Source of the DNA: Pseudomonas sp. B6002
GTDB taxonomy: Bacteria; Pseudomonadota; Gammaproteobacteria; Pseudomonadales; Pseudomonadaceae
Reading direction: 5' to 3'
Length of the DNA stretch: 64,000 bases
Assembly: GCF_013385985.1 (NCBI RefSeq)
Contig: NZ_JACAOY010000006.1
Coordinates: 124,001 to 188,000, forward strand
Within the stretch, counting starts at the first letter, position 1. Each line of letters begins with the position of its first letter. Below the pieces are notes generated by a model. That model was given only the letters and a program-made list of their open reading frames with translations, made no database searches and had not been told where the DNA came from. A program made the translations under genes and the position numbers. Shown in pieces: positions 53,701 to 61,302 of this stretch.

Positions 53701-54016
53701 CGGCGTTCCTCTGGTTGAGTGAACAGCGTAGCAGTCGGCGATTGGGAGCCAACTCCAAGGTCATGAGTGTCCGCTCTCGAGCCTGAGCCGCCCTTCGCGA
53801 AAGGCGGCAATCGGCCAAAAGCGGTCACTCCGCATGCCTACGAAGCCAGGGGCGATTCAGGCGTCGCCGAAAACATAAAAACTGTACGCCCGAAAGTCAT
53901 ATCCCCCCATGGAACTTCCCCAAAAAATGATGTCAATTTGATTGCTCGTTACAGCAACAAGATCATCTTGGATCAGTCAGCGTCAGGCTATTTCCTGACA
54001 CCCCATGGAGAGAGTG
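53701..54016. other. Intergenic region with palindromes
   Basis: No convincing gene. A near-perfect 22-bp palindrome with GCCGCC/GGCGGC arms lies at 53786-53807. A smaller hairpin GTCAGG-CTATTT-CCTGAC lies at 53982-53999, just before the ribosome site of the next gene. Confidence 0.5.
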
Positions 54017-54442
54017 ATGAGAGCCATCATTGCGATGTTATTGATGTTGAGTACCTACGCTCATGCTGGTTGCGGCAACATCAGTGACAGCGATCAACGC
54101 GCTTATTGCGAGGCCAAAACCAATGGCCAAAGCTGCGGCAATATCCGGGACAACGACCTTAGGGCCAGTTGCTCGGCGGAAATGAACGGGCAAAGCTGCG
54201 GCAACATCAGTGACAACGATCAACGCGCTTACTGCAATGCCAAAGTCAACGGTCAAAGCTGCGGCAATATCCGGGACAACAACCTTCGGGCCAGTTGCTC
54301 GGCGGAAATGAATGGCCAAAGCTGCGGCAACATCAGTGACAACGATCAGCGCGCTTACTGCAATGCCAAAGTCAACGGTCAAAGCTGCGGCAACATTCAA
54401 GACAGCAACTTGCGTAACGAGTGTGATGCCATAAAGCATTGA
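54017..54442 (+). CDS. Secreted protein of six 21-residue cysteine repeats
   Basis: The 141-residue protein has a 17-residue signal peptide (MRAIIAMLLMLSTYAHA), then six units of about 21 residues with the pattern GQSCGNIxDxxxRAxCxAxxN. Each unit has two Cys, 12 in all, with SDNDQRAYC and RDNNLRASC units alternating. The DNA repeat is 63 bp, in pairs of 126 bp, and nearly identical between pairs, which points to recent expansion. ATG 54017 has GGAGAG five bases upstream. Periplasmic or outer location is expected, with disulfide-paired repeats. It lies 0.7 kb inside attR, a cargo position. Function unknown. Confidence 0.75.
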   Translation: MRAIIAMLLMLSTYAHAGCGNISDSDQRAYCEAKTNGQSCGNIRDNDLRASCSAEMNGQSCGNISDNDQRAYCNAKVNGQSCGNIRDNNLRASCSAEMNGQSCGNISDNDQRAYCNAKVNGQSCGNIQDSNLRNECDAIKH

Positions 54443-59636: not shown

Positions 59637-59853
59637 TCCAAGGTTTGATTGTTTTTTTATGCGGCAGTTAGATCGTTTATTTCCTTCCGGTCTGATGCAA
59701 TACCTGTTTCGAATATCTAAAACGTCGTTTAGGCGCACTCAGCGGCGATTGCGTTCGTTATTGCGTCGATAGAAATGTTATCGCGTCGTGCACGGCTGTT
59801 TCGGTCAACTAAGCTTGCCCCCGAACAGCCTTTGCCGCTGCTCTGCCGTCGTC

Positions 59854-59881
59854 TTGCGCCGCTGTCTGGCGGCTCTAGAAT
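59854..59881 (+). promoter_or_regulatory. Promoter of the Met-rich gene, with a dyad in the spacer
   Basis: TTGCGC and TAGAAT are 16 bases apart. The spacer is occupied by a perfect dyad GCCGC-TGTCTG-GCGGC (59858-59873), so a repressor or activator could bind on the promoter itself. The start codon is 47 bases downstream. Confidence 0.5.
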
Positions 59882-59927
59882 CGGCGCCAGAACTTAGCCA
59901 TTTCCTGTCGATTACGGAGTTTCGAAC

Positions 59928-60455
59928 ATGATGAATGCAATGCAGATGCCGATGAACACCGCCATGCCCATGATGCCGATGATGGGCATGCCGATGATGA
60001 TGGCCACCATGAAGTGCGAGATGGCCGCTGACGCCATGATGTGCACCATGAAGCCAGCAGCCGGTATGGACATGGCTCAGTTCAAGACCAACGCCGAAAT
60101 GATGGCGATGATGATGAACTGCGGCATGCCGATGATGATGCAGTGCGCCAATATGTCGATGATGGGCATGTCGGCCGACGCCATGAAAATGATGACCGGC
60201 ATGAACATGCCGATGATGCCGATGATGCCGATGATGCCGATGATGTCCATGGGCATGTCGATGCCGATGATGACGTGCATGATGGAGTGCACCATGATGG
60301 CCGACAGCATGATGTGCAAAATGATGCCGATGCCCGGCATGAGCATGGACATGATGAAAAACTGCTGCATGCTCATGAACAAAATGATGAACGACTGCGC
60401 CATGCCCATGATGATGAGCTGCAACGGCATGCCGATGATGTGCTGCACCTGCTGA
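59928..60455 (+). CDS. Methionine/cysteine-rich protein, putative metal binder
   Basis: This 175-residue protein has, by my hand count, 76 Met and 14 Cys. It has runs such as MPMMPMMGMPMMM and MPMMPMMPMMPMM, and Cys motifs MNCGMPMMMQC, TCMMEC, KNCCM and a C-terminal MMCCTC. No signal peptide, no His and almost no aromatic residues. Two halves look related (MxxCxM..ADxMMC blocks), suggesting duplication. The DNA has CCGATGATG repeated four times near 60209-60246. GGAG lies 8 bases before the ATG. Dense thioether and thiol ligands suit Cu(I) or Ag(I); the role as a cytosolic copper store or sponge is inference. It has its own promoter and terminator. Confidence 0.75.
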   Translation: MMNAMQMPMNTAMPMMPMMGMPMMMATMKCEMAADAMMCTMKPAAGMDMAQFKTNAEMMAMMMNCGMPMMMQCANMSMMGMSADAMKMMTGMNMPMMPMMPMMPMMSMGMSMPMMTCMMECTMMADSMMCKMMPMPGMSMDMMKNCCMLMNKMMNDCAMPMMMSCNGMPMMCCTC

Positions 60456-60470
60456 CAGGTCCCGCACAAT

Positions 60471-60501
60471 AAAAAACGCCCCGATCATTCGGGGCGTTTT
60501 T
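60471..60501. terminator. Bidirectional terminator
   Basis: ACGCCCCGA and TCGGGGCGT pair around TCAT, with six A on one side and TTTTT on the other. It separates the Met-rich gene from the convergent regulator gene. Confidence 0.92.
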
Positions 60502-60511
60502 GCATTCAGGG

Positions 60512-61138
60512 TCAGTCCAATCGCTCTGGATAGGTAATCACCAGGAACGCCACGGCTTCACTGTCGGCCGGGTTGCGGTAGCGGTGGGGCTGGTCGGCGT
60601 AGAACAGGATCGAATCGCCGGTTGATAACAGATAACGCTCGTCGTTGACGCTGACTTCCAGCACGCCCTGAGCCACCACCAGGTTTTCCTGGATGCCTGG
60701 GCCATGCCCTTCGGATACTTCTTCGCCCAGCGCGCGCAAGCGGATCTCGTAAAACTCAGACTGGCGCGCCGTATCGTAGGGGAACAGCGCACGGCTGATA
60801 AACGCGCCATCGGCACTCACCAGGCGCTTGCTCTGTTGGGCTGGCAAGACCTCAACACCTTCAAAGGCGCGGTCTTCCAGGAACGCTGCCACCGACACCT
60901 TCAAACCCTTGGCAATCTTGCATAGCACTTTGATCGACGGCACGCTGCGGCCCGACTCGATCTGCGCCAGCATCGCCCGGCTGACCCCGCAGGCCCGCGC
61001 CAACCCATCCAGTGACAAATGGCGCTTGCTCCGCAGGCGTTGCAGGTTGTGCGCCACGCACAGGCTGATCACATCGTCGTCGGTATTCGGTTTGGGCAGG
61101 GGTTCGGGTGGTTCGGGCAGCACGTGCAGGAAATTCAT
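60512..61138 (-). CDS. XRE-family regulator with C-terminal cupin domain
   Basis: The 208-residue protein has an HTH_3 domain (about 32-88: NLQRLRSKRHLSLDGLARACGVSRAMLAQIESGRSVPSIKVLCKIAKGLKVSVAAFL). A cupin_2 domain (about 135-205: SEGHGPGIQENLVVAQGVLEVSVNDERYLLSTGDSILFYADQPHRYRN) follows. This class senses small metabolites through the cupin and usually represses neighbouring genes. The start MNFLHVLPEPPEPLPKP at 61138 is chosen; the frame extends further without domain support. It is 5 bases after a 52-residue gene on the same strand. Confidence 0.9.
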   Translation of the reverse strand: MNFLHVLPEPPEPLPKPNTDDDVISLCVAHNLQRLRSKRHLSLDGLARACGVSRAMLAQIESGRSVPSIKVLCKIAKGLKVSVAAFLEDRAFEGVEVLPAQQSKRLVSADGAFISRALFPYDTARQSEFYEIRLRALGEEVSEGHGPGIQENLVVAQGVLEVSVNDERYLLSTGDSILFYADQPHRYRNPADSEAVAFLVITYPERLD

Positions 61139-61143
61139 CGGCC

Positions 61144-61302
61144 TTACGCCCGGCGAGTATCGCTGGAGGGCGCTGCCTGGGCGGTGAACACCGCAAGCCC
61201 GGCACGTGCGGCGTACATCGCCCACATCAACTCGGCTGCAGCACGCGCCTGGCGGCGTTTACGGTGGAGCGTGAAGTCGATGACGGTGGCCGATGTTTGC
61301 AT
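61144..61302 (-). CDS. Hypothetical basic small protein upstream of the XRE gene
   Basis: The 52-residue frame opens MQTSATVIDFTLHRKRRQAR and continues AAAELMWAMYAARAGLAVF to a short tail. It is basic, with one amphipathic or weakly hydrophobic helix. It stops 5 bases before the regulator start, so the two are probably co-transcribed. No family recognised; start is the ATG at 61302 with GGGGGC-poor ribosome site. Confidence 0.45.
   Translation of the reverse strand: MQTSATVIDFTLHRKRRQARAAAELMWAMYAARAGLAVFTAQAAPSSDTRRA

Follow-up and report, generated by a model that had tools for sequence, protein, structure and literature searches.

We report a conserved family of proteins, about half methionine plus cysteine, whose gene in Pseudomonas faces the gene of a SutR-like XRE-cupin transcription regulator and whose constituent domain recurs beside such a regulator on rhizobial plasmids. 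Our best reading, to which we assign a probability of roughly 0.45, is that the pair forms a module responding to sulfur, with the Met/Cys-rich protein serving as a store or sink of sulfur amino acids. More tentatively, Pseudomonas and rhizobia may thus possess a dedicated, regulated bacterial reserve of sulfur amino acids, built on a new 55-residue domain and served by its own SutR-like sensor. The window, meaning the whole stretch of DNA analysed, spans 64,000 nucleotides of the Pseudomonas sp. B6002 genome.

A conserved protein family rich in methionine and cysteine

The window copy comprises 76 Met, 14 Cys, 16 Ala, 15 Pro and no His among its 175 residues (Table 1), exactly matching the Met, Cys and His counts of a first-pass annotation of this DNA, and its gene occurs once in its own genome. 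As that annotation also held, no signal peptide is present as far as can be judged by eye, and the protein is apparently cytosolic. For comparison we used the best 80 of 115 relatives from a genome-contig scan, all titled Pseudomonas. Sulfur residues account for 45.6-52.4% of the protein in all 80 copies (Met 36.9-43.5%, Cys 14-16), and His is absent from 35 and present once in the other 45. So odd a composition is far beyond chance.

Table 1. Features of the Met/Cys-rich locus, in window coordinates
Feature	Position	Strand	Remarks
Conserved upstream element TTAGATCGTTTATTTC	59668..59683	+	~260 bp 5' of start codon
Promoter-like TTGCGC-N16-TAGAAT	59854..59881	+	boxes 59854-59859 and 59876-59881
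Ribosome-binding site GGAG	59916..59919	+	conserved
Met/Cys-rich protein CDS	59928..60455	+	175 aa, 43% Met, 14 Cys; basis: ORF and family conservation
Cys/Met domain copy 1	60009..60176	+	~residues 28-83; limits from L031
Tandem CCGATGATG units in linker	60207..60245	+	differ between species
Cys/Met domain copy 2	60282..60449	+	~residues 119-174, carries CC pairs; limits from L031
Bidirectional intrinsic terminator	60472..60501	.	13-bp perfect stem, between gene and convergent regulator
SutR-like XRE-cupin transcription regulator	60512..61138	-	convergent with Met-rich gene; Pfam HTH_3, Cupin_2
Conserved 52-aa ORF	61144..61302	-	ends 5 nt before regulator start; no Pfam match

Matches to the gene were found in 65 of 299 genomes of the genus Pseudomonas, including a remnant with an internal stop (G279) and a copy truncated at a contig end (G206). 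Across the taxonomic family it was matched in 28 of 198 genomes and 3 of 19 genera, and a class-wide profile search of 369 genomes returned its own genome as the sole match; the one-domain form described below was reached via the regulator, not via that search. Searches of Pfam, NCBIfam and PDB with the protein gave no convincing relative. Weak matches to FHIPEP (3 of 27 aligned members, best E 0.024), PcrB, a single PDB chain (E 1.6) and, for one rhizobial form, MCU (E 0.12, absent in a second search) were judged to reflect chance or composition. Searches of the open-access literature brought up no paper recognised as concerning the protein.

The first-pass annotation had named codon-level conservation as a check on the protein, and it is present: median pairwise dN/dS was 0.20 over 3148 of the 3160 pairs of the 80 copies, and the Met reading frame is open in every copy. 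The +2 frame is also open in 19 of the 80 and the two antisense frames in 79 and 57, the latter because ATG reads as CAT on the opposite strand; the dN/dS estimate, and with it codon-level constraint, refers to the Met frame alone. Fifteen Cys columns are conserved at 95-100% among the 80 named copies, one of which (Cys in 76, Gly in 4) has Gly in the window copy. Mean column conservation reached 0.98 for Cys, 0.87 for Met and 0.75 for Ala among 20 representatives below 90% identity, and stood overall at 98-99% for Cys and 87-90% for Met. We conclude that this is a real conserved family. Because the Cys and Met positions are so well conserved, and above all because the Cys positions are so strictly kept, the alignment suggests a folded or ligand-binding function.

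Flanking DNA elements

A promoter-like TTG-N16..18-TAGAAT lies upstream in 79 of the 80 copies, and this conservation is the evidence for the element, in line with the dedicated promoter proposed earlier. Its TTGCGC is weak as a -35 box and is therefore not listed by a simple promoter scan, which listed neither promoter nor terminator here. The bidirectional terminator, likewise proposed in the first-pass annotation, is borne out in the window by a perfect 13-bp palindrome; among the 80 copies, 34 have a terminator-type hairpin within 150 nt past the stop, so the feature is not universal.

Farther upstream, the conserved element is the only perfect match to TTAGANCGNTTATTTC in its own genome. 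A regulon for it was considered and rejected: one perfect site plus 20 with one or two mismatches gave 21 against 12 for a reversed control. Direct repeats GTTATTGCGTC and GTTATCGCGTC, 20 bp apart, were seen by eye 5' of the promoter-like element (59757-59787, + strand). An RNA element was also discarded: the sole Rfam gathering match in the window is a tRNA elsewhere, and five weak Rfam matches around the gene were judged chance.

Two copies of one Cys/Met domain

The Pseudomonas protein consists of two copies of one Cys/Met domain of about 55 residues, which has no Pfam or NCBIfam match and is newly defined here. Its limits were taken from L031, a copy 99% identical to that of the window and equal in length. 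Aligned with the rhizobial domain described below, L031 copy 1 has a BLOSUM62 score of 150 (shuffled mean 56.8, maximum 83 of 500) and copy 2 a score of 162 (shuffled mean 65.3, maximum 97 of 500), while the two halves of L031 aligned together give a local score of 26 (500 shuffles: mean 12.2, sd 2.1, maximum 20). Most copies (75 of the 80) contain the motif C-x-M-[PQ]-x-MM-x-C twice, and five contain it once. There is one conserved C-x3-C (C117, C121), and the remaining Cys are adjacent or otherwise spaced.

Between the domain copies lies a hypervariable linker, six residues longer in the window copy than in L032. The tandem CCGATGATG array to which the first-pass annotation had ascribed growth by slippage is real and sits in this linker, where slippage is therefore plausible. 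To the eye, the start of a 145-aa ORF elsewhere in the window (54005-54442, + strand) looks secretion-like, and the ORF contains some five tandem repeats of 21 residues each (type CGNISDNDQRAYCNAKVNGQS, period 63/126 bp); a Pfam search put no family over its cut-off for this ORF.

A SutR-like regulator accompanies the gene

The convergent gene encodes a protein with the XRE plus cupin layout (HTH_3, E 2.3e-12; Cupin_2, E 5.2e-12). It was found in 78 of 81 loci (the 80 copies and the window), the misses being L063, L087 and L104, in the last of which the DNA stops about 250 bases past the Met-rich gene; other neighbours vary between loci. With an ortholog threshold of E 1e-60 or better, 66 of the 299 genomes have the regulator, 64 of them together with the Met-rich gene and two without it; of the remainder, one has the Met-rich gene alone and 232 have neither. 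Orthologs are thus present in 64 of 65 genomes with the Met-rich gene and in 2 of 234 without it (Fisher p 9e-62, computed as if the genomes were unrelated). The single Met-rich gene without a regulator (G206) is the one at a contig end. As for the two solitary regulators, that of G183 has a stop in its frame, with short weak matches to the Met-rich gene remaining, and in G273 a mere 33 bases separate the start of the match from a contig end. G149 has some 7 kb between the two genes, and G053 has them on different contigs. In two genomes, L122 and L123, both genes look decayed, which suggests joint loss of gene and regulator.

A 52-aa ORF preceding the regulator was found by motif in 76 of the 78 loci with a regulator, and the two are likely in the same operon.

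Compared pairwise within a small set (SutR and PuuR of E. coli, every own-genome paralogue recovered at E 1e-5, four in all, and relatives), the regulator has SutR as its closest characterised relative (34.5% identity, 95.9 bits, E 1.6e-28; best own paralogue 71.6 bits, E 3e-19), and SutR in turn finds the Pseudomonas regulator as its best match within the set. To PuuR the window regulator has no match below 1e-3, while some orthologs match it weakly (best E 6e-6). SutR is named for sulfur utilisation, going by the title of Yamamoto 2015 as cited in PMC8464067. The best full-length solved relative is Vibrio cholerae 1Y9Q (E 3e-25), for which an excerpt of PMC7901475 gives D-methionine in the cupin pocket. 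By analogy this is a weak hint at the regulator's ligand; few full-length XRE-cupin structures appeared in the comparison. According to the same paper, P. aeruginosa XRE-cupin proteins inhibit neighbouring genes (PMC7901475).

A shared operator was sought with a matrix from the conserved site before the regulator operon and rejected, since only one of 23 Met-rich upstream regions (L108) beat 60 shuffles. With no common operator found, control of the Met-rich gene by the regulator is therefore a prediction, and this result counts against the sulfur reading.

Diverged regulators (47-53% identity) lend support to the sulfur reading. All three that were recovered at E 1e-30 (L119-L121) come from genomes without the Met-rich gene, and each adjoins an FMN-dependent monooxygenase: L119 has the NtaA/DmoA type, as does L120 by its ORF, and the one in L121 is SfnG-like, below the curated cut-off. 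A family search also found SsuA-, SsuC- and TauD-like genes in L119, and L120 has the same gene order as judged by ORFs only.

The module recurs on rhizobial plasmids

A plasmid search with the regulator alone returned 117 records, of which we examined 18 chosen for spread, not at random. Nine of these 18 loci have, convergent with the regulator, an ORF in which Met and Cys together make up at least 34% of a 50-residue stretch; they belong to Mesorhizobium, Shinella (2), Rhizobium (4) and Microvirga (2, on two plasmids of one strain). No such ORF was found in the loci from Azospirillum (3), Alteromonas, Azoarcus, R. gallicum, Priestia, Cupriavidus and Cetobacterium. In eight of the nine, no more than about 120 bases separate the ORF from the regulator match; in L149 the distance is about 1.5 kb. 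A tblastn search of the plasmids with the window protein gave no match, probably through low-complexity masking.

Rhizobial proteins have one Cys/Met domain each; that of L136 is a short 52-aa form, possibly cut at its start. Against both Pseudomonas copies the L140 domain scores far beyond composition-preserving shuffles (in one case 173, where 500 shuffles averaged 59.7 and peaked at 88), and the rhizobial and Pseudomonas alignments match by hhalign with a probability of 96.9 (E 1.3e-10). In the five loci translated, a small ORF of 59-61 aa precedes the regulator, with a start similar to that of the 52-aa Pseudomonas ORF and a different tail. Public records annotate an opposite-strand ORF at three loci whose Met-rich genes lie on the minus strand (L137:6649-6978, L138:6682-7008, L148:6625-6963).

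Sulfur genes lie close by in five of the eight annotated Met-rich plasmid loci, three of which (L140, L146, L148) are close relatives: ssuD, cysE, msuE and genes for a sulfonate-binding protein and a sulfur transferase in L137; tauA and msuE in L140 and L148; msuE and a gamma-glutamylcyclotransferase gene in L146; and homocysteine methyltransferase and sulfur transferase genes in L141. None was found nearby in the annotation of the other three (L136, L138, L139), two of which have a gene of copper biology within 5 kb (tyrosinase in L136, an SCO-family protein in L139), and this too weighs against the sulfur reading. The ninth positive locus, L149, lacks annotation. Two Azospirillum plasmids carry diverged regulators without a Met-rich ORF: that of L142 is near a sulfate-exporter-like gene, and that of L143 near genes for an oxygenase, a transsulfuration-type enzyme and an LLM oxidoreductase and near msrB.

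Sulfur and copper genes around the Pseudomonas locus

In 13 of 20 genomes a sulfonate-transporter gene of the SsuA family lies within 40 kb of the Met-rich gene, against 1.29 expected and a count reached by 0 of 20000 random placements; within 15 kb the figure is eight of 20, against 0.53 expected. These distances are upper bounds, taken among the best matches listed, which also served for the random placements. For TIGR01096, a transporter family used as control, three of 20 genomes have a member within 40 kb (1.65 expected, p 0.22). The copper ATPase family TIGR01511 is found within 100 kb in none of the 20, against 2.4 expected, and the nearest is 436 kb away; this is absence of support for copper, not disproof. 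A 21st genome, G129, in nine contigs, was left out of these tests; on its contig with the Met-rich gene there is no listed SsuA-family gene or copper ATPase, and a TIGR01096 gene is about 22 kb away; with G129 included, SsuA would stand at 13 of 21, copper ATPase at 0 and TIGR01096 at 4.

Not all of this favors the sulfur reading. Seven of the 20 genomes have no listed SsuA-family gene within 100 kb, and in the genome of the window the nearest strong one is about 35 kb off (a weak one is about 18 kb off). Within up to about 5 kb on each side, 21 of the 81 loci carry an SsuA-like, 14 an SsuC-like and 10 an LLM-monooxygenase-like gene, and 25 loci carry at least one of the four sulfur-type genes sought; the fourth, TauD-like, was found in none, a further point against. 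These counts come from related genomes with common ancestry and are not independent. The wider neighbourhood is enriched in sulfur scavenging. Listing the neighbours had been proposed in the first-pass annotation; doing so revealed no close copper ATPase and did reveal the convergent regulator, which had been overlooked.

A proposed reserve of sulfur amino acids and its alternatives

Several kinds of observation lead us to favor the sulfur reading: sulfur residues at 45.6-52.4% of the protein, the near-constant SutR-like partner, the SsuA enrichment, recurrence on plasmids and the sulfur-linked diverged regulators. The module would consist of two units, the small ORF with the regulator and, facing them, the Met/Cys-rich protein. 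The regulator would sense methionine or another sulfur metabolite and adjust expression of the convergent gene; the protein would thus accumulate while reduced sulfur is plentiful, as a cytosolic reserve or sink of sulfur amino acids. Proteolysis would then release the reserve once the cell is left with sulfonates and other poor sources. A compact fold would follow from the invariant Cys/Met pattern, and soft metals might be bound as a secondary capacity. That pattern is also a difficulty, because a plain reserve needs composition, not position, yet the Cys and Met columns are conserved.

We know of no bacterial precedent for a sulfur reserve of this sort, and no bacterial protein reserve of sulfur amino acids surfaced in searches of the open-access literature. 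In Rhodococcus, an excerpt of PMC8557817 states, synthesis of Cys- and Met-rich proteins can be limited under sulfur shortage. If the sulfur reading is true, it would provide a new regulator-effector pair, and such a reserve would account for how bacteria of soil and plants cope with a fluctuating supply of sulfur. Should the protein bind copper instead, it would represent a new cytosolic store of metal whose set of ligands is unusual. In both cases, a conserved partner gene comes with the 55-residue domain and makes the question testable in a single strain.

The main rival, which we regard as rather unlikely, is a cytosolic sponge for Cu(I)/Ag(I) or other soft metals, in which thiolates and thioethers of the duplicated domain buffer ions in a cluster or bundle core. 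It would account for the nearly invariant Cys columns, the repeated C-x-M-[PQ]-x-MM-x-C motif (twice in 75 of 80) and the conserved C-x3-C, and the two copper-biology genes of L136 and L139 fit it. The protein resembles cytosolic Csp3 in having no evident export signal (excerpt of PMC5171941), and has no His. Its partner, however, is not a known metal-type regulator, no copper ATPase lies within 100 kb in the 20 genomes, DUF326 is not matched, and the neighbourhoods in two classes more often suggest sulfur. On these grounds the copper/silver assignment of the first-pass annotation has so far found no backing, although its conserved, apparently cytosolic Met/Cys-rich protein stands. The invariant Cys lattice would permit soft-metal binding, and neither this nor sulfur storage excludes the other.

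Another sulfur-linked role, such as a sulfane-sulfur carrier or a chaperone of sulfur-scavenging enzymes, with the Met content being structural, is considerably less probable. The sulfur context and the positional conservation would suit it, as would the replacements at Met columns, which in the 20 representatives are Leu, Val or Ile in 85 of 179 cases, as for packing residues; but about half of the replacements are polar or small, and such a role leaves the costly half-sulfur content unexplained. We hold an oxidant sink to be quite improbable. Its Met and Cys would react with hypochlorite, peroxide or the like and be regenerated by Msr and thioredoxin, and it could claim the very high Met content, a reported precedent in a periplasmic Met-rich peptide with Msr, and the msrB near the diverged regulator of L143; yet no msr is annotated beside the eight annotated rhizobial modules (in incomplete plasmid gene tables), and a sink has no need for invariant Cys positions and fits this type of regulator poorly. 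Finally, an untranslated, slippage-prone ATG-rich stretch, with which the open antisense frames and the three opposite-strand annotations in rhizobia would agree, is scarcely credible given the dN/dS of 0.20, the conservation of both ribosome-binding site and promoter-like element, and the presence of a homologue of the domain in another class.

Comparison with known systems

Met-rich copper proteins of the PcoE/CopB type are exported and His-rich. The present family is likewise Met-rich, but membership of that type was rejected on composition, with 0 or 1 His in each of the 80 copies and 0 in the window copy; by eye, the N terminus of the latter shows no evident signal. A very high Met content is also shared with hypochlorite scavengers of the MrpX type, which differ as a system said to comprise a periplasmic Met-rich peptide with linked Msr and a sigma factor.

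The copper-storing Csp proteins (DUF326, PF03860) resemble the family in being Cys-rich and in the idea of storage, and Csp3 is cytosolic without a signal peptide according to an excerpt of PMC5171941. They differ, according to that excerpt, in having several CXXXC pairs lining their helices, compared with a single conserved C-x3-C and 43% Met here (PMC5171941). None of the 27 aligned members matched the DUF326 profile at E up to 10, in a search where HMMER filters discard most weak hits; one DUF326 protein from a relative's genome, compared by hhalign, gave a probability of 0.04, and DUF326 had no match in the genome of the window. Membership of Csp/DUF326 is thus rejected on sequence, by the lack of a profile match and the single conserved C-x3-C.

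For the regulator alone, E. coli SutR (YdcN, 178 aa) offers a counterpart with the same XRE plus cupin layout; it differs in its 34-35% identity and in having no Met-rich gene annotated around sutR. The Met-rich seed storage proteins of plants, the zeins and 2S albumin, have to our knowledge no relation to the Met/Cys-rich protein, and offer by analogy a system in which protein-bound sulfur amino acids serve as a reserve.
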